Source: Draconibacterium orientale
GTDB lineage: Bacteria; Bacteroidota; Bacteroidia; Bacteroidales; JAADGE01
Reading direction: 5' to 3'
Assembly: GCA_020721645.1 (NCBI GenBank)
Contig: DYMH01000018.1
Location: forward strand, 8,370-41,805
Length of the DNA: 33,436 nt
Below are positions 9,967 to 28,292 of this stretch, one piece after another (the stretch's first letter is position 1; each line of letters begins with the position of its first letter). The notes beneath the pieces are model-generated. The model saw only the letters and a program-made list of their open reading frames with translations. It had not been told where the DNA came from and searched no databases. The position numbers were made by a program, and so were the translations under genes.

Positions 9967-10851
9967 ATGAAAAATGTCAATTTAAGATTTGGACTGCTTA
10001 TACTACCGCTGTTTTTTGCGACTTCCTTTATAAAATCACAAACAAAACCCGACATGATACTCGTTGACGGAGGCTCATTTGTGATGGGAAGCGACAAGGG
10101 AGACCCCGACGAATTTCCGATTCATAAAGTTACTCTAAGTTCTTATTATATTGGAATTCATGAAGTAACAGTCAGTGAATATCAATCATTTATCAACTCC
10201 ACAGGTGGTAAAATGCCCAATCCGCCCGATGAAGAGTGGTTTGAAACCCATAAAGACACCAAAAAATTCTATCCATCACCGGCAAAAACATGGTGGGGCT
10301 GGAAAGATGATTTCCCGATGCACAATGTAACATGGCTTGATGCCGTAAAATACTGTAATTGGCTGAGTGAAAAATTAGGACTTCAGTCGTGTTATACCAA
10401 AAATGCTGATGGGGGTTGGGATACCGATTTATCAAAAAATGGCTATCGATTGCCCACCGAGGCTGAGTGGGAATTTGCCGCACGAGGCGGAACCAAAAGC
10501 AAAGGTACTCGTTACAGCGGAAGTGCTAACATCGCAGAAGTTGCTTGGTACGATGAAACCACAGCACTCGCCGGACCGCAAGCAATTAAAACCAAGAAGC
10601 CCAATGAGTTAGGAATATATGACATGAGTGGAAATGTTTGGGAATGGTGCAGCGATTATTATTCAAAGGCATTTTACAAAAATAGTCAAAACACTAACCC
10701 AATAAATACAACATCTCAACCGTACCGTGTTTTAAGAGGCGGAGGTTGGCATTATCAAGGCTCGTTTGCAACAGTTACAAGTCGCGATGGTCCTGAACCT
10801 TTTTATACAAACTATAACTACGGCTTTAGAATAGTTCAGACAAAAAAATAA
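9967..10851 (+). CDS. SUMF1/formylglycine-generating-enzyme-like secreted protein (paralog 1)
   Basis: The track start at 9862 is TTG and overlaps the hairpin; ATG at 9967 gives signal peptide MKNVNLRFGLLILPLFFATSFIKSQ. Motifs: MILVDGGSFVMGSDKGDPDEFPIHKVTLSSYYIGIHEVT, YRLPTEAEWEFAARGG, NELGIYDMSGNVWEWCSDYY, RVLRGGGW, NYGFRIV. Confidence 0.92.
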   Translation: MKNVNLRFGLLILPLFFATSFIKSQTKPDMILVDGGSFVMGSDKGDPDEFPIHKVTLSSYYIGIHEVTVSEYQSFINSTGGKMPNPPDEEWFETHKDTKKFYPSPAKTWWGWKDDFPMHNVTWLDAVKYCNWLSEKLGLQSCYTKNADGGWDTDLSKNGYRLPTEAEWEFAARGGTKSKGTRYSGSANIAEVAWYDETTALAGPQAIKTKKPNELGIYDMSGNVWEWCSDYYSKAFYKNSQNTNPINTTSQPYRVLRGGGWHYQGSFATVTSRDGPEPFYTNYNYGFRIVQTKK

Positions 10852-10872
10852 GAATTTTATCAATTACCTTTG

Positions 10873-11661
10873 ATGAAGAGCGTATTAATATATATCCCAA
10901 TAATCCTTGCATTCATATTCCAATTGCCGATTTTGAATGCTCAAACAGAGCCCGATATGGTTTTTGTTAAAGGCGGTTCGTATAGAATGGGGGCTGAAAA
11001 CGGCGATGCCGATGAAAAACCTGTTCATACAGTAATTGTCAGTAATTTTTATATCGGAAAATACGAAATTACAGTTAAACAATATCGAAAATTTTGTGAA
11101 GCAAGCGGGCATAAAATGCCTGCCGACCCAGGTTCGGAGTGGTATGAGGAGTATGACCAAGCCAAAAAATGGACATGGAAAGATGCCAATCCAATAACAA
11201 ATGTTACTTGGAACGATGCGCGTGATTTCTGCGAATGGCTCAAAAAAGAAACAGGTAAAAATTATGATTTACCAACCGAAGCTCAATGGGAATTTGCTGC
11301 AAGAGGGGGCAAATTATCGAAAAATTTCAAGTACAGCGGCAGTGATAATATCAACGAAGTTGCTTGGTACGATGAAACCACCTACGAACGCGGACCAATG
11401 GCTGTCGGAAAACTTAAACCCAATGAATTGGGAATTTACGATATGAGTGGAGGTGCTTGGGAATGGTGCAAAGACCGTTATTCTAAGTATAAAACTACTA
11501 TGATGAAAGACCCACAGGGTCCCGAAAAAGGAAGCTATCGTGTGACTCGCGGGGGATCTTGGTACTATGTTGAAGATATGTGTCGGGTTACTTCCCGCGA
11601 TGGACCGTATCCATATTATTCTAACTACAATTACGGTTTTCGTGTTGTGATAAACCCATAA
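10873..11661 (+). CDS. SUMF1/formylglycine-generating-enzyme-like secreted protein (paralog 2)
   Basis: The track start at 10870 is TTG; ATG at 10873. MVFVKGGSYRMGAENGDADEKPVHTVIVSNFYIGKYEIT, DLPTEAQWEFAARGG, NELGIYDMSGGAWEWCKDRY, RVTRGGSWYYVEDMCRVTSRDG, NYGFRVV. Confidence 0.92.
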   Translation: MKSVLIYIPIILAFIFQLPILNAQTEPDMVFVKGGSYRMGAENGDADEKPVHTVIVSNFYIGKYEITVKQYRKFCEASGHKMPADPGSEWYEEYDQAKKWTWKDANPITNVTWNDARDFCEWLKKETGKNYDLPTEAQWEFAARGGKLSKNFKYSGSDNINEVAWYDETTYERGPMAVGKLKPNELGIYDMSGGAWEWCKDRYSKYKTTMMKDPQGPEKGSYRVTRGGSWYYVEDMCRVTSRDGPYPYYSNYNYGFRVVINP

Positions 11662-19699: not shown

Positions 19700-21340
19700 A
19701 TGCGTTTGAAAAGAAGTATCGAAGACGATTTATTTACCGATTTAGATGCCATCGTTATCGGCGGCGGAATAACCGGTGCAGCAGTGGCATACACAGCTGC
19801 CGGAAGAGGTTTAAAAATAGCTCTTTTCGAGAAAAAAGATTACGGCGGTGCAACATCAGCCGCAACCTCAAAATTGATACACGGCGGTTTGCGTTATTTG
19901 GCTAATATGGAATTTAAACTTGTACGTGAATCGTTGCAGGAACGGCGAATTTTGGGAAATATCGCCCCAAATTTTGTGTATCCCCTGCCATTTATATTTC
20001 CTAACTACAAACGTTGGAAAGGAAATATGTGGAAATTGGCGGCAGGAATGTTTTTGTATGATATTTTATCGTTTGATAAACAAAAAACTTGGGACAAATC
20101 CAAACGTTTACCCAATCATAAAACCATCAGCTATTCGGAAGCAGTGAAATTTGAGCCCAATTTGATTGCCGATAATCTTCGCAATGCAGTTGTTTTCTAC
20201 GATTATCAAAGCATCTTTCCCGAACGATTGACTTTGGCATTCATCAAATCTGCGGCAGAATATGGTGCAAAAGTTTCCAATTATTCCGAAGTTGTTGATT
20301 TTATTTATCAAGATAAAAATACAGTATCCGGTGTTCTGGTAAAAGATATTTTGAGCGGAACTCAAAAAGAAGTTAAAGCTCCGTTAATTATCAATTGCGG
20401 AGGCACTTGGGCAGATATTATTTTGTCAATAGCAAGTAAAAATAAGCAATCGACTCATAAAGTGAAACGGTCGGAAGGCATTCATATTATCACACCAAAA
20501 ATTGCCGGAAACCATGTGGTTTCGATACAAAAAAATGAAGGCGGACACATCATGATAATGCCATGGCGGGGACATTCGCTTATTGGCACCACAGACCGCG
20601 AATACGAGGGAAATCCTGATGATTATCAAGTATCTCGACAAAGTATCGAAGAAATATTAGCAGCAGTGAATGCGAATTTTGGGTCTAAAATTTCGTTTGC
20701 CGATATCAAACATGTTTACGGCGGGCTTCGACCGCTTATCGACAATAAAACCGAAGGAACTTACAGCACATCGCGTAAATATGAAGTTTACGACAATGCT
20801 TCCGACGGAATCAATGGTCTGATAACCGTGGAAGGCGGAAAATACACAACCAGTCGGAATTTGGCTAAGCATGTGATGGAACTGGCAGAAAAAAAAACCG
20901 GAATTAAACCGAGAGATGTTTACACTCACAAAAATTTTTTGTCGGGTTGTGATATTAAAGATATGGACGAATATCTGTTTAAACAACATAAATTTTATAG
21001 CGATTTTGATTATCAAACCGTTGAATTTCTCAGCAGAAATTATGGCAAAGAAAGTGAACGTATTTTCGAGTTGGCAGACGCAAACCCACGCTATCGCGAT
21101 ATTGTGAGCCACGATGGTGAAATATTGGCAGAAGTTGCTTATGCTGTTCAATTTGAGTCGGCAAAAACATTGAAAGACATTATGTTACGGAGAACCGGTA
21201 TCGGAACCCTCGGAAAACCGCGTGAAGAGGTGTTGCAAAAAGTGTTAAATCTTGCATCGGAATTATTGTTTTGGGACGAGAATCGCCGGCAAACGGAATT
21301 GGAAGCATTGATGAAAGTGTATGAATTGCCGATGGAATAA
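19700..21340 (+). CDS. glpD: FAD-dependent glycerol-3-phosphate dehydrogenase family
   Basis: 546 aa; DAIVIGGGITGAAVAYTAAGRGLKIALFEKKDYGGATSAATSKLIHGGLRYLANMEFKLVRESLQER; GHSLIGTTDREYEGNPDDYQVS; TVEGGKYTTSRNLAKHV. Confidence 0.93.
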   Translation: MRLKRSIEDDLFTDLDAIVIGGGITGAAVAYTAAGRGLKIALFEKKDYGGATSAATSKLIHGGLRYLANMEFKLVRESLQERRILGNIAPNFVYPLPFIFPNYKRWKGNMWKLAAGMFLYDILSFDKQKTWDKSKRLPNHKTISYSEAVKFEPNLIADNLRNAVVFYDYQSIFPERLTLAFIKSAAEYGAKVSNYSEVVDFIYQDKNTVSGVLVKDILSGTQKEVKAPLIINCGGTWADIILSIASKNKQSTHKVKRSEGIHIITPKIAGNHVVSIQKNEGGHIMIMPWRGHSLIGTTDREYEGNPDDYQVSRQSIEEILAAVNANFGSKISFADIKHVYGGLRPLIDNKTEGTYSTSRKYEVYDNASDGINGLITVEGGKYTTSRNLAKHVMELAEKKTGIKPRDVYTHKNFLSGCDIKDMDEYLFKQHKFYSDFDYQTVEFLSRNYGKESERIFELADANPRYRDIVSHDGEILAEVAYAVQFESAKTLKDIMLRRTGIGTLGKPREEVLQKVLNLASELLFWDENRRQTELEALMKVYELPME

Positions 21341-21353
21341 AATGAATGCTTAA

Positions 21354-24086
21354 TTAGCTGATTTTCATTCCAATAATCAAAACATCGTCCATTTGTTTGA
21401 GAGAACCGCGCCACGCATCGAAGTTATTATTGAGTAATTCGGCTTGTTTTGAAGCTGATTCTTTGCTGTTGTTTTTTAAAAAGTCTTTCAAGCGTTTCGA
21501 GAAAAATTTCTTGCGGTCGGCTTGGCTGAATTGGTCGGCATAACCGTCGGAAAACATATACAGCCAATCTCCTTTTTGAATGGGAATAATTTCTTTTCTG
21601 AACGGTTTTTCTTCGTAGGAAATACCGATTGGCATAAAATCGGGTTTGATGTCGATAATTTGGTTGTTACGAACGATTACAAGCGGATTTTCGGCTCCCG
21701 AAAACTCGACAATCCCTTTTGTTTTATCAATGATACACAAAGCCATGTCCATACCATCTTTCGCTTCTCCTTCTTTACCTGTTTGACGGAGCGAAATTTT
21801 TACTTTGTTCCGTAATTCATTGAGTATCAAATCGGAAGTAATCTCTTCGTCGCTGAAATTTGCCATTATTTCGTTCAAATACGAGATGCCGAGCATGCTC
21901 ATAAAGGCTCCCGGAACGCCGTGCCCCGTACAATCTGCTGCTGTAACAATGAGCCGATTGCCTTTTTGTGCAGCCCAATAAAAATCGCCGGAAACAATAT
22001 CGCGAGGGCGAAAGAGAATGAAATTTTCGGGCAAATAGTCCGATATAATTTCTTGCGGCGGCAAAATAGCACTTTGTATTCGTTGTGCGTAGAGGATACT
22101 GTCGGTTATTTTTTTATTTTGAAGGGCGATTTGTTCTTCTGCCAATTTGATTTGTGTAACATCTGCATCGATGGCAATGATTTTACGCAAATTTCCTTCG
22201 GTTGTTAAAATAGGAGTCAGAGTGGTTTGTATCCAAATGATTCGATTTTCGGAAGTTTTGGTTTTTGCCGAATATATGATAGATTTTTTTTCGGTAACAG
22301 CTTGTTCAACGCGTTCTTTTAAATCATCAATCAGGCTGGATTTGAACATATTGCTCGAATATTTTTTCTTAAATTCATCGAATGTTAAACCCAATAATCG
22401 TGTAAAACCGTCGTTTACCCATTCAATTTCTCCGTCCGGCTGAGCAATGACAACAGAATTTTCGGTTTTGCTGGCAACGATTGATAATTTTTCGAGTTCA
22501 AAATTATTCAATTCCAATTCATGTGCCTGAGCCAAAATCATTTCGTTTTGTTTAAGAATTTCGTTTTCGGCTTCTTTTATTTTTGTGATGTCAGAATCGA
22601 TGAGTACCAATTGATTTACTTCACCCAAAGCATTAATTGTCGGAGAAAGAGTGGTTTGCGACCATTTTTTCTCTCCGGAGCGTGCCGTTACGTAGGTTTC
22701 GTAAATTACGGGAGTTTTCTTATCGATGCAGGTACGAATAAATTCCTGAATTTGAGGGTGATTGCTTGCTCCAACAATATGTTCGCTCACTTCGTTGCGA
22801 AGCAATTGCAGCGTGTAGCCGTACATTCGTGTAAATCCGGCATTCACCCATTCAAAATTCCCATCGATGTCCAAAATGGCAACTGCACTCGATGTTTCGC
22901 TGGCTACGATTGATAATTTTTCAAGTTCTTTGTTGATAATTTCCAACTGTCCGGCTTGTTGTTGAATTTCCTGTTTTTGCAAGCCCAGTTGTTTATTTTG
23001 CCTTCGTGTAATGCGATATCCGCGTAAAATAAAGAATACCAAGATGCCTATGATAACAAAGAATCCGATGAAGATTGTTAAAGCATTTTTTTGAAATTTT
23101 ATTGTTGCTGATTGTTTTAACAGCGTAAACCCCTGTTCGTTAATTCGGGCTTGGTTTTCTTTTACTGCTTTGTTTAGATTCCCCAACTTTAAGGTTTGTT
23201 CTTTAACCTGTAATTGTTGCTTTGTTAATTTTTGGTTTTGAATTTCAATATCTTTTTCCTTCAATAACAAAACGGTATTTTTTGCATTTAATTCTTTTCT
23301 TTGAGTATTTGCTTGCTCAATCAATGTACTCATGAGTTTTTTTTGGTCGCCGATTTTCCTTTCCGAAGCATCGATTTCTGCTTTTTGACGGTCAAGTTTT
23401 TTTTGCTTGTATTCCAAATCTTTTTCAATCAAATCAAGTTTATCTTGTTGTTCTTTAACTTTTTGGCGTTCTTTTCTCAGATTTTCTTCCGATTCGTTTA
23501 ATAAATATCTGTCATCGATAATTTCTACATTTTCTTTTTTGATATTCGATAATATTTGTGCCCCGGTTTCGGCGATATTCCGGGCGTTGATTTGTTCGAT
23601 AAACTCATCTTCATTTTCAACAAAATTAACCATCACCGATTTTTTAACACCCCACGCTTCGGTAATTAAAATCGTATGATTTGGTCTTATTTTTTTTGAT
23701 ATTTCCTCGTAATTGGCGGCATATTCTTTCGAAACATAGAGAATCTGAACGTTAAATTCGGCTACAATATCCGGATTCAAAATATATACAATTTTGAACG
23801 ATTTTCCGTGGGGATAATGTTTTTTTTCTAAACGTTTGAGTTCTTTCATCAATAATTTTGAACCGCCCAAAATCCCAACTTCAACATCTCCGTTCCCGCT
23901 GCTCCATTTCAAATATTTTGGTAATTCCCAAATTATTTCGGCTTTTTGTTTTTCGTGGTCTTTGTCTTGTGAAAAGGCAATTTGTTCTACAAAAATTGTA
24001 AAAATAAGGACTGACAAGATTTTATATGATATGTTCCGTATCAAAATATCTTTTTTAAACGTGGTTTTAAAAACTCCTAAATGCAA
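21354..24086 (-). CDS. YfiR-like (DUF4154) - coiled coil - TM - PAS - PAS - SpoIIE phosphatase sensor protein
   Basis: 910 aa; signal peptide then KAEIIWELPKYLKWSSGNGDVEVGILGGSKLLMKELKRLE...VQILYVSKEYAANYEEISKKIRPNHTILITEAWG (YfiR-like); heptad-rich helix; TM ALTIFIGFFVIIGILVFFIL; two PAS domains (NFEWVNAGFTRMYGY; EIEWVNDGFTRLLGL); SpoIIE RDIVSGDFYWAAQ, AADCTGHGVPGAFMSMLGISYLNEIM, MFSDGYADQF. Confidence 0.9.
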   Translation of the reverse strand: MHLGVFKTTFKKDILIRNISYKILSVLIFTIFVEQIAFSQDKDHEKQKAEIIWELPKYLKWSSGNGDVEVGILGGSKLLMKELKRLEKKHYPHGKSFKIVYILNPDIVAEFNVQILYVSKEYAANYEEISKKIRPNHTILITEAWGVKKSVMVNFVENEDEFIEQINARNIAETGAQILSNIKKENVEIIDDRYLLNESEENLRKERQKVKEQQDKLDLIEKDLEYKQKKLDRQKAEIDASERKIGDQKKLMSTLIEQANTQRKELNAKNTVLLLKEKDIEIQNQKLTKQQLQVKEQTLKLGNLNKAVKENQARINEQGFTLLKQSATIKFQKNALTIFIGFFVIIGILVFFILRGYRITRRQNKQLGLQKQEIQQQAGQLEIINKELEKLSIVASETSSAVAILDIDGNFEWVNAGFTRMYGYTLQLLRNEVSEHIVGASNHPQIQEFIRTCIDKKTPVIYETYVTARSGEKKWSQTTLSPTINALGEVNQLVLIDSDITKIKEAENEILKQNEMILAQAHELELNNFELEKLSIVASKTENSVVIAQPDGEIEWVNDGFTRLLGLTFDEFKKKYSSNMFKSSLIDDLKERVEQAVTEKKSIIYSAKTKTSENRIIWIQTTLTPILTTEGNLRKIIAIDADVTQIKLAEEQIALQNKKITDSILYAQRIQSAILPPQEIISDYLPENFILFRPRDIVSGDFYWAAQKGNRLIVTAADCTGHGVPGAFMSMLGISYLNEIMANFSDEEITSDLILNELRNKVKISLRQTGKEGEAKDGMDMALCIIDKTKGIVEFSGAENPLVIVRNNQIIDIKPDFMPIGISYEEKPFRKEIIPIQKGDWLYMFSDGYADQFSQADRKKFFSKRLKDFLKNNSKESASKQAELLNNNFDAWRGSLKQMDDVLIIGMKIS

Positions 24087-24275: not shown

Positions 24276-26612
24276 ATGAAAAAACTCAGATACACATTCT
24301 TTTTGGTCGTTATCATCGGATTTTCGTTTTCTGTACATGCACAACAGACCAAATATTCTAAAATTAAAATCTATGCACAATCCGGGGATTTAAAAAAAAT
24401 TGCCGGCTTGGGATTGCCCTTAGATTTTGGAGTCACATATCGAAATAACGAATTAACCGGCGAGTTTTCGCAAAATGACATCAATAAATTGATAAAAGCC
24501 GGAATCAAGTACGAAATACTGACCAATGATATGTCGAAATTTTATTCTCAACGCAATAAAAAATCTACACAATTAAACAAAACCGCAAAGACTCCGGTAA
24601 ATTTTCATTTAGGTTCTTTTTTAGGAAATCTCTCTTTATCGGAAATGATAACAGAGCTCGAAACTATGAAAACTTTGTATCCTAATTTAATTTCCGCCCA
24701 AATGTCTATCGACCAAACAATTACAACACACGAAGGCGAGCAGGTTTTTTACGTAAAATTATCCGACAATCCGGAAACCGATGAAGAGGAGCCCGAAGTT
24801 CTCTACACCGCATTAACACACGCACGCGAGCCTGTGGGCATGATGCAACTGATTTATTATATGTGGTATTTGCTCGAAAATTATGACACCGACCCCGAAA
24901 TAAAATATTTGATGGACAATACCGAAATGTACTTCGTACCCTGTGTTAATCCTGATGGCTACGAATACAATCATGCCGAATATTTGGCAGACCGCGATTA
25001 TATGTGGCGAAAAAATCGTCGCAATAACGGTGACGGCACTTTTGGGGTGGATATCAACCGAAATTATGGTTTTCAATGGCATTTTGACGATTCAGGTTCG
25101 TCTTCCTATCCGAGCGATGAAACCTATCGCGGACCAAGTGCTTTTTCGGAACCCGAAACCCAAATGATGCGAAATTTTACCGTTGGTCGGAATTTTTTAG
25201 CTGCCAACAATCATCACACTTACAGCAACTTACTTTTATATCCCTTCGGATACGATGAAATTCAGGCACCCGACAGTCTGATTTTTAAAACCTATGCAGC
25301 ACTCATGGCGAGACATAACGGTTTTTCGACCGGAACTGCATGGGAACTGCTTTATTCCACAAACGGCGATGCCAACGATTGGATGTACGGCGAGCAAACA
25401 ACAAAAAATAAAATTTATTCCTTTACCGCAGAAACAGGCAACAGCACTCAGGGTTTTTGGCCCGATTCCGAAGATATTTTGCCCTTGTGCGAAAATAATT
25501 TGGAGATGAATCTGTATCTGACACGTTTTGTTTCGGTTTTTGCTCAAATAACAGATAAATCGGAAACAATAATTCCAAATTCAGGGCAAATTTCTTTCGA
25601 TTTGCAACGGCTCGGGCTTTCGGGAAACGGAACGTATTCGGTTTCTTTATCCTCGAACGATGATATTTTTGAAACAATAGGTGCAAATGTCGAAATTGAA
25701 TTACCAAATGTTTTGGATTCTCAAACCGGCACAATTGATTATCTGCTCAAAAGTTCGGTCGCAAACGGCAGTACGGTTAATATGATTTTAACAGTAACCA
25801 ATGGCGAATATTCGGTTTCCGAATCTCTTTCGAAAATAATCGGAGTAGCTGAAATTATTGTTTCCGAAGACGGAAATTCGATGACCGATTGGACTACATC
25901 GCATTGGAACACCACCTCAAGCTCTTATGTCAGTCCGGGGTTTTCGATTACCGATTCGCCTGCCGGAAATTATTATGACAACACCAACAATCCGATAACA
26001 TTGACTTCGCCTGTCGATTTATCCGGAGTAACTTATGCAGCTCTTTCATTTCAAGCACATTGGGATATAGAAAATGATTGGGACTGTGTCCGTCTGCTTG
26101 TTTCAGAAAACAATGGTTCTACATGGAGTCCGATTCAGGGAAAATATACCAATCCGGGAGCTGACCAAGGTGAGCAAATTGCAGGCGAACCACTTTACGA
26201 CGGAACAATGACAAATTGGGTTTTGGAAGACATCAACCTACAAAATTTCCTGAACAAAACACTAAAATTCCGCTTCGAATTGAAAAGCGATGGATATGTT
26301 ACAAAAGACGGATTTTATTTCGATGATTTTAAAATCGTAACACTTGCCCCAACGGTTTCGACAGAGGAAATTGAAAACAGCGAAGTAAAAATTTATCCAA
26401 ATCCCAATCGAGGTTTATTTAACATTTCAATCAAAAACAATTCAAATTTCAACAGATTGGAAATCACGGATATTTCCGGGAAATTGATATTGAAACAAAA
26501 AATACTAAATATCAATGAGATAAAAGATATTAAAATAGAAAAAGGTATTTATTTTGTTTCCTTAATCAAAGAAAATAATAAGAAATTCACACAAAAATTA
26601 GTGATTTACTAA
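24276..26612 (+). CDS. M14-family zinc carboxypeptidase, secreted, with C-terminal T9SS type A sorting domain
   Basis: 778 aa; signal peptide; LYTALTHAREPVGMMQL (HxxE), MYFVPCVNPDGYEYN, WRKNRRNNGDGTFGVDINRNYGFQW, SFTAETG; C-terminal VKIYPNPNRGLFNISI...GKLILKQKI...GIYFVSLIKENNKKFTQKLVIY. Confidence 0.95.
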   Translation: MKKLRYTFFLVVIIGFSFSVHAQQTKYSKIKIYAQSGDLKKIAGLGLPLDFGVTYRNNELTGEFSQNDINKLIKAGIKYEILTNDMSKFYSQRNKKSTQLNKTAKTPVNFHLGSFLGNLSLSEMITELETMKTLYPNLISAQMSIDQTITTHEGEQVFYVKLSDNPETDEEEPEVLYTALTHAREPVGMMQLIYYMWYLLENYDTDPEIKYLMDNTEMYFVPCVNPDGYEYNHAEYLADRDYMWRKNRRNNGDGTFGVDINRNYGFQWHFDDSGSSSYPSDETYRGPSAFSEPETQMMRNFTVGRNFLAANNHHTYSNLLLYPFGYDEIQAPDSLIFKTYAALMARHNGFSTGTAWELLYSTNGDANDWMYGEQTTKNKIYSFTAETGNSTQGFWPDSEDILPLCENNLEMNLYLTRFVSVFAQITDKSETIIPNSGQISFDLQRLGLSGNGTYSVSLSSNDDIFETIGANVEIELPNVLDSQTGTIDYLLKSSVANGSTVNMILTVTNGEYSVSESLSKIIGVAEIIVSEDGNSMTDWTTSHWNTTSSSYVSPGFSITDSPAGNYYDNTNNPITLTSPVDLSGVTYAALSFQAHWDIENDWDCVRLLVSENNGSTWSPIQGKYTNPGADQGEQIAGEPLYDGTMTNWVLEDINLQNFLNKTLKFRFELKSDGYVTKDGFYFDDFKIVTLAPTVSTEEIENSEVKIYPNPNRGLFNISIKNNSNFNRLEITDISGKLILKQKILNINEIKDIKIEKGIYFVSLIKENNKKFTQKLVIY

Positions 26613-26645
26613 ACTTGCTACAATGTTGTTTATTTAAGCAAATTA

Positions 26646-26857
26646 TTGTATATCAAGCCTGAAAGGCTTAAATATGAATAACCGCCGGTGTAAACCGGCG
26701 GAAATAAAAACTCACAAGTTGCAACCCTGATAAGGGTTGAACAAGAGGATTTGTTTAAGATTCAACCCTTATCAGGGTTGTTGTTTAACGCATTTTTTTC
26801 CGTAGGTTTCACCTACGGTTATTCATATTCAAGGCTTTCAGCCTTAACTATACGATA
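26646..26857. repeat. REP/BIME-like foldback element of six small hairpins in two inverted arms
   Basis: Hairpins: AAGCCT-GAA-AGGCTT (26655-26669), CCGCCGGT-GTAA-ACCGGCGG (26682-26701), CAACCCT-GATA-AGGGTTG (26722-26739), CAACCCT-TATC-AGGGTTG (26763-26780), CCGTAGGT-TTC-ACCTACGG (26800-26818), AAGGCT-TTC-AGCCTT (26831-26845). The left arm is the diverged reverse complement of the right arm. Confidence 0.9.
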
Positions 26858-26894
26858 TTGAAGCATGCTACCGAATTAAACAATTTTCTAAAAT

Positions 26895-26931
26895 AAAAAA
26901 CCTCGAAATGCAAGCGATTTCGAGGTTTTTT
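26895..26931. terminator. Bidirectional intrinsic terminator between convergent genes
   Basis: AAAAAACCTCGAAAT (26895-26909) / ATTTCGAGGTTTTTT (26917-26931), 15-bp perfect stem, 7-nt loop. Confidence 0.92.
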
Positions 26932-26945
26932 TGTTGATATGGATA

Positions 26946-28292
26946 TTAAAAAATAAAATTCAAACCGATATACAAGCCCGAATCTCCGTCCTGAGCAACG
27001 GCTGCTCGCCCGTAATCAACGGCAATAATGAAATTTTCGTTGATAGCGAAATGCAAACCTGCACCGTAGCTGAGATGCAAGCCTTCATCGGCTTTGTGAA
27101 ACATTTCTAAGTTTTGCTCTTGTGTGTTTCCGTAGCCGGCAGTTACGCCATTTGTATTGATTTTGTAGGGATTTGTTATTATTCCGCCGTCTAAAAATGT
27201 GCTGAGAGCGATGTAGAAATTTTGTTTAAAAATGGTTGTTTTCAGAAATTTCCAACGTAATTCAAGATTTCCCATACCAAAACCATCGCCCACTACACGG
27301 TTTCTCATAATTCCGCGAAGGTTTTTAGAGCCGCCAAGTCCGTCCTGCGAAATTTTGGAGTCGTTAAAATACGGCAACATATAAAAAGGCATCTCTCCCG
27401 ATAATTTTGCTTGGTAGCTGAGTCGGTAAGCGAAAGTCAGCCTATTTTTTACGATAGTAAAATATTGTCGATGAGTGAGCATCAAACGGCTGTATCCAAA
27501 ACCATCGCTGATGCCGCTCGGCGAGCCAAGCAGTATGATTTCAGACCAAATTCCTCGATTCGGATTTGCTTCGTTGTCGCGTGTGTCGTACACCAAACCT
27601 ATTTTCCCAAAAGCTGTGCGTCCGCCGTCTTTTTGTTCTTGGTCAATAACGCCCCATTCTACGTATTTGTCGTACAAACTTGCGGTATCCGGAAGCAAAT
27701 CGTTGCCCGATTTTCCTTTGTTCAATTTATCTACATCGACCGACGAAATTTTTGTGTCGTAATACGAAAATCCGGCAAGCCAACGCAATTTTTTGCCCAC
27801 GAGTTCGCCCTGAAAATCGGCATTAAAACGTAATAATTTTCGTTGTTGGCGATAGTACATGCGAGAAATATAGCCGGCACCGATTTGGGTATCGTCTTCG
27901 AAAGATGAATTAAAATCGGCTTCGTACCCGTTGAAACCATAAAAATCGAGAGCTTGTTCGGTTAGGTAGCTGCCTTCGAGCGTCATACGGGTTTTAGGAA
28001 TCAGAGTGCGTGTGTCGTAAATCAATTGCGTACGCATACTGCCTTTGGTGGTGTTAGACCATTCCATGTAAAGTGAGTGGTTGTAATTCGGATAGTTGGT
28101 TCCATCGCCGTAGTGGAAAAAATTCATCACCAAGCCGTATTTGAACCCAATGTCGGAGTCGTAAGCAACAACAGGAACACCGTTGATACTGAGACCTTTC
28201 TTTACTTTTTCGGTTTTCGCACTGTCTTGCTGTGCCGAAATCGAAAGTGTCAAACCAATTGACAAAAAGACAATTAAGGAGATTTTTTTCAT
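26946..28292 (-). CDS. Omp85/BamA-like outer-membrane barrel protein, no obvious POTRA region
   Basis: 448 aa; signal peptide; amphipathic beta strands; GLVYDTRDNEANPNRGIWSEIILLGSP; GGSKNLRGIMRNRVVGDGFGMGNLELRWKF; NENFIIAVDYGRA...GLYIGLNFIF terminal aromatic. Confidence 0.85.
   Translation of the reverse strand: MKKISLIVFLSIGLTLSISAQQDSAKTEKVKKGLSINGVPVVAYDSDIGFKYGLVMNFFHYGDGTNYPNYNHSLYMEWSNTTKGSMRTQLIYDTRTLIPKTRMTLEGSYLTEQALDFYGFNGYEADFNSSFEDDTQIGAGYISRMYYRQQRKLLRFNADFQGELVGKKLRWLAGFSYYDTKISSVDVDKLNKGKSGNDLLPDTASLYDKYVEWGVIDQEQKDGGRTAFGKIGLVYDTRDNEANPNRGIWSEIILLGSPSGISDGFGYSRLMLTHRQYFTIVKNRLTFAYRLSYQAKLSGEMPFYMLPYFNDSKISQDGLGGSKNLRGIMRNRVVGDGFGMGNLELRWKFLKTTIFKQNFYIALSTFLDGGIITNPYKINTNGVTAGYGNTQEQNLEMFHKADEGLHLSYGAGLHFAINENFIIAVDYGRAAVAQDGDSGLYIGLNFIF

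Follow-up and report, generated by a model that had tools for sequence, protein, structure and literature searches.

A probable IS4-family MITE with a gene-less pair of Y1 element ends as its core in a Draconibacterium orientale genome

The six-hairpin foldback element in the analysed window, which is the whole stretch of 33,436 nucleotides from one contig of Draconibacterium orientale, is most probably (probability of about 0.88) a non-autonomous MITE of the IS4 family, the core of which is the pair of ends of a Y1 element without its gene. It is regarded as an IS4-type MITE, rather than as an element for which mobilisation by a RAYT has been demonstrated, because the same terminal inverted repeats (TIRs), the 10-bp target duplications and IS4-family parents were all found. 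The full mobile unit spans 26621–26860, and its ends are imperfect 18-bp TIRs with the consensus CAATGTCGTTTAGTTAAG. The limits of 26646–26857 in the preliminary description were too short, as the TIRs and the duplications lie at the positions listed in Table 1. The unit is 240 bp long, contains no transposase gene and is multicopy, as is characteristic of a MITE.

Table 1. Coordinates of the element, its parts and its neighbours in the window
Feature	Position	Strand	Remark or evidence
Upstream neighbour: M14 carboxypeptidase with type-IX secretion tail	24276–26612	+	
Target site duplication, left copy, 10 bp, AAACTTGCTA	26611–26620	.	8/10 identical to right copy
Left TIR, CAATGTTGTTTATTTAAG (consensus CAATGTCGTTTAGTTAAG)	26621–26638	+	same TIR bounds IS4-family insertion sequences
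Hairpin 1, left arm, AAGCCT-GAA-AGGCTT	26655–26669	+	stem identical at left end of Y1 gene, host contig C30
Linker between hairpins 1 and 2, AAATATGAATAA, conserved	26670–26681	+	AATA[AG]C core in nearly all aligned arms
Hairpin 2, left arm, CCGCCGGT-GTAA-ACCGGCGG	26682–26701	+	sequence, arm alignment, covariation
Hairpin 3, left arm, CAACCCT-GATA-AGGGTTG	26722–26739	+	sequence, arm alignment, covariation
23-nt centre	26740–26762	.	five copies and C30 compared
Hairpin 3, right arm, inverted	26763–26780	-	sequence
Hairpin 2, right arm, CCGTAGGT-TTC-ACCTACGG	26800–26818	-	sequence, covariation
Hairpin 1, right arm, AAGGCT-TTC-AGCCTT	26831–26845	-	three bases common with right TIR
Right TIR (CAATATCGTATAGTTAAG on - strand)	26843–26860	-	sequence, TIR scan
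Target site duplication, right copy, 10 bp, AAGCATGCTA	26861–26870	.	flank comparison
Terminator-like hairpin belonging to the Omp85-superfamily gene	26895–26931		
Downstream convergent neighbour: Omp85-superfamily outer-membrane protein	26946–28292	-	

The element begins just past the stop codon of the M14 carboxypeptidase gene, and the left target duplication shares the last two bases of this codon. The location between convergent genes was described correctly, with the Omp85-type gene on the other side, and all six hairpins, three per inverted arm, are at the positions first reported. The DNA MFE of the foldback is −62.3, compared with −21.2 ± 3.6 for shuffled sequences (z = −11.4), which places the fold far beyond chance. 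The short AACAA/TTGTT stem described in the centre is present in the window copy but is not kept in all of the other copies.

The host genome, a 3.83-Mb draft in 285 contigs that was scanned by search only, contains five near-full-length copies of the element with 92–100% identity, in agreement with the earlier suggestion of a dispersed multicopy repeat, and all five terminate at the same IS4-type inverted repeats. The copies occupy gaps between reading frames, some of them between co-oriented genes, and no plasmid relatives were found. The TIR pattern scan of the host genome detected many further elements of 77–245 bp with differing interiors, and about 30 elements with this TIR are present there. 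Hairpins of the GGCTCTGCC type occur in about 16 or more of them, cores of the CGTTGGGG or CTTCGACAAGCTCAG type in a few, and one element is a 77-bp near-perfect palindrome. In the host genome and its order together, the same TIRs bound at least 51 elements and enclose many unrelated hairpin cores. Within the order, 37 of 247 genomes contain the TIR pattern at one mismatch or fewer, and the reversed control gave almost no matches. Among the elements long enough for the core to be tested (n = 47, selected by their ends only, with several from one core family and hence not 47 independent cases), the folding of the core has a median z of −5.5, and 79% lie below −3.

Several variants of such elements were observed. 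A 45-bp element, in which two TIRs are fused around one hairpin, occupies the same place in two species (L164 on G014 contig C97 and L166 on G017 contig C37) and is taken to be a minimal or relic MITE. On host contig C110 (about 19768–21635), an IS110-family-like element lies inside the terminal repeat of a GGCAGAGCC-hairpin MITE, the own target duplication of which is intact outside. Two host contigs, C103 and C236, carry GGCAGAGCC-type MITEs that are split by another repeated element, which begins with GAGGCTGTCTCAAAAGCC.

Target duplications were tested for 51 non-redundant elements from the host genome and its relatives, where the TIR was taken to begin at CAATG. Exact 10-bp direct repeats flush with the ends were found for 24 of the 51 elements (47%), and another 11 showed 9/10 matches. 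Exact repeats at lengths of 6–9 and 11–14 were found for 0% of the 51 elements, and randomly paired flanks gave an exact 10-bp match in 0.2% of cases. The alternative of a TIR starting at TCAATG and a duplication of 8 bp was rejected in favour of the 10-bp assignment on the basis of this length test. The consensus of the duplicated target is close to AWTTWTAAWT; some sites in other genomes are A/T-rich tandem runs, where single cases are weaker. The duplications of the five copies with the window core match at 10/10, 10/10, 10/10 and 9/10 positions, and at only 8/10 for the window copy, which indicates that the insertion in the window is probably old. An empty site was also found: a TIR-family element of genome G245, with a core different from that of the window element and located in low-complexity DNA, is missing in the sister genome G147, where the flanks are contiguous.

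Autonomous elements whose ends are identical or nearly identical to those of the MITE are IS4-family insertion sequences of related genomes, and the two intact ones lie outside the host genome. In genome G044, a 1.48-kb insertion sequence on contig C24 has perfect CAATGTCGTTTAGTTAAG ends and an intact transposase of 447 aa with the IS4 YREK motif YHYRWSEEEAYKLLK. In genome G187, a 1.45-kb insertion sequence has the near-identical ends CAATGTCGTTTCCTTAAG, a perfect target duplication and an intact transposase. The scores of the two proteins against the IS4-family profile NF033592 are 174.6 and 158.2 bits, respectively (cut-off 115). Decayed IS4-family transposases lie between such repeats in genome G027, and related remnants were found in G190. 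In the host draft genome, the search revealed no IS4 transposase with such ends; the enzyme may have been lost from the host or left unassembled. The DDE_Tnp_1 genes found in the host were considered as the parent and rejected, as none of them bears these TIRs.

The TIR of the element matches the published end consensus of the IS4 subgroup, -AATR--------WTW----, for which direct repeats of 10–13 bp are described (De Palmenaer 2008, PMC2266710). The 5'-CA ends, the 10-bp repeats and the YREK parents of 1.4–1.5 kb agree with that subgroup, and MITEs are not mentioned in the text of that paper. In contrast to MITEs derived from IS4 elements, the core of the window element is foreign Y1 hairpin DNA and not the product of an internal deletion of an insertion sequence.

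A search of the host genome for a Y1 (IS200-like) transposase had been suggested, and one was found on contig C30, its ends marked by the same hairpins. This gene encodes 148 aa (PF01797, 84 bits; NF033573, 70.9 bits) and has the same three-hairpin arms on both flanks in inverted orientation, and each arm of the window element is homologous to its ends. The 23-nt centre of the window element occupies the position of the transposase gene in the Y1 element, and no coding remnant was seen in it on comparison of the five copies and C30. The arm consists of a hairpin, a linker ending in AATAACC or AATAGCC, a second hairpin, a spacer of about 20 nt and a third hairpin. Many Y1 homologues in many genera, with identities from 69% down to 42%, have the same layout, but not every homologue does. 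Single and tandem arms also occur near Y1 genes in relatives. Because some of the arms that adjoin Y1 genes lie outside shells, action of Y1 on arms elsewhere is possible.

The C30 protein fits TnpA-Y1 subclass 1.2 (Quentin 2018, PMC6006769) by its motifs (DHIH, WQ and YVKNQEEHH, the last corresponding to Y---Q--HH) and its length of 148 aa (about 148 aa in the subclass), as well as by low copy number and occurrence in Bacteroidetes. According to the same paper, typical terminal IS200 structures are generally absent from this subclass, whereas both flanks of the C30 gene bear a conserved three-hairpin arm.

The stem differences between the two arms of the window element were checked base by base: CCGCCGGT/ACCGGCGG and CCGTAGGT/ACCTACGG differ by two compensated pairs, and AAGCCT/AGGCTT and AAGGCT/AGCCTT by one, as reported earlier. 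Covariation extends to the homologues. In an alignment of 29 arms, which were chosen partly for hairpin-forming ability (raising the paired percentage) and a few of which are misaligned by an extra loop base (lowering it), 91.6% of the cells pair, and 16 of 21 pairs are changed on both sides. The number of doubly changed cells is 134, compared with 39.8 ± 6.7 in shuffled and 9–19 in slid controls. The two ends of the C30 element, left and right, already differ in hairpin 1 in the same way (AAGCCT and AAGGCT); therefore, this compensation is old and was inherited from that Y1 element. The statement that no uncompensated change occurs holds for the window copy but not among the five MITE copies, where four stem substitutions produced three broken pairs and one G-T wobble, with no compensation. 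The changes are few, but the stems of the MITE look to be decaying rather than maintained. The preliminary description was right in that the hairpins covary across homologues.

On the preferred reading, an IS4-family DDE transposase, which would once have been present in the host genome, would recognise the 18-bp TIRs in trans, excise the element and paste it into A/T-rich intergenic sites with duplication of 10 bp. The core corresponds to the two ends of a Y1 element of the IS200/IS605 superfamily (subclass 1.2), with three hairpins each in a fixed order, and the covariation would have arisen while the hairpins served as these ends, where they presumably act as single-strand recognition structures. 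In the MITE, the hairpins would be mainly passengers, acting at most as weak two-way terminators between genes.

The preliminary description favoured an element of the REP/BIME type mobilised in trans by a RAYT-like Y1 enzyme through its hairpins, in which case the TIRs and duplications would be secondary. The host Y1 gene with the same hairpins, the covariation of these hairpins and the arms near Y1 genes in relatives agree with this idea, and C30 provides repeats of the type that flanks a Y1 gene in this genome. However, the outer boundaries lie at IS4-type TIRs rather than at the hairpins in all five full copies, where the 10-bp duplications match at 8 to 10 positions, and many unrelated cores are found within these TIRs. 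No HUH/Y1 transposase is known to produce target duplications. Moreover, no shell-free gene-less arm pair was seen in the host genome. Mobilisation by Y1 is therefore judged very improbable; the REP/RAYT idea accounts for the cargo, not the vehicle. A structured RNA or a bidirectional terminator under selection between the convergent genes, the other proposal made, is regarded as having hardly any likelihood. The hairpins are stable, terminator-like sites occur on both strands (3 versus 0.5 expected), and the copies are placed in gaps between reading frames. Against this, the stem changes among the copies are uncompensated, some copies are located between co-oriented genes, a separate terminator-like hairpin belongs to the downstream gene, and no Rfam match came near the gathering score.

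A further possibility, compatible with the IS4-type MITE, is that IS4 spreads the shell while the Y1 enzyme remains active on the core, for example by inserting, exchanging or nicking arms, and thereby swaps cores within a constant shell. That the shell stays constant while its hairpin cores vary, both within a genome and between genera, would fit this extension, as would several recurrences of the arrangement. A second, different Y1 gene of the NHIH/YIHNNP type lies on host contig C179, and the commonest MITEs of the host have a core of hairpins resembling those at its flanks within the same shell, which thus holds hairpins of two Y1 systems. In genome G008, from another genus of the family, a two-arm core of three-hairpin arms with different stems lies inside different IS4-like ends with the exact 10-bp duplication CCTTAAAAAG, and ends resembling this second shell bound an insertion sequence on host contig C127. 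The TIR is recurrently fused to a hairpin at TTAAG in several genera, and this fusion may be the join used when cores are captured. On the other hand, no intermediate with a Y1 insertion inside a shell was found, and short-homology recombination would suffice too. We consider this extension unlikely.

The kind of element is known, and the combination of an IS4-type shell with a Y1 hairpin core is apparently undescribed; nothing comparable to REPs inside MITEs was found in the open-access text of the literature searched. REP/BIME, REPIN/RAYT and TIRtron systems (PMC3116915, PMC2817692, PMC3733652) likewise have palindromes flanking a Y1 gene, intergenic dispersal and inverted pairs. They differ from the present case, in which each end has three hairpins, the dispersed unit is bounded by DDE-type ends with target duplications, and no constant GTAG/CGTC tag was seen beside the hairpin in the arm alignment. 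BrickBuilt elements of Porphyromonas gingivalis (PMC4596501) are also Bacteroidales MITEs with an unrelated repetitive core; that core is reported to be a minisatellite, which sets them apart.

How REP-like hairpins become dispersed while the Y1/RAYT genes themselves show little mobility is a standing question. In the present case, Y1 hairpin ends ride in cut-and-paste ends; at least two different IS4-like shells are involved, and one genome contains at least two of the Y1 systems. It is tentatively proposed, with some doubt, that the IS4-type TIRs are an order-wide carrier that has repeatedly captured hairpins of unrelated Y1/REP systems, so that DDE transposons rather than Y1 would spread many REP-like hairpins, while Y1 may still exchange cores. 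The subclass 1.2 Y1 proteins also gain a defined candidate substrate of three covarying hairpins.

Two minor observations are added. A related three-hairpin core occurs at the end of host contig C26 (21065–21110) and at the start of C262 (1–180), flanked by a different long inverted repeat of about 60–75 bp (TGCGAATCACGGGTCAAAATTTATTTTAAGT...); the two parts are probably one element split by the assembly, and the inverted repeat is possibly a third kind of shell. Elsewhere in the window, at 10450–11490, two adjacent genes share several stretches of 41–72 bp with 79–88% identity, 819 bp apart, which is a tandem gene duplication.
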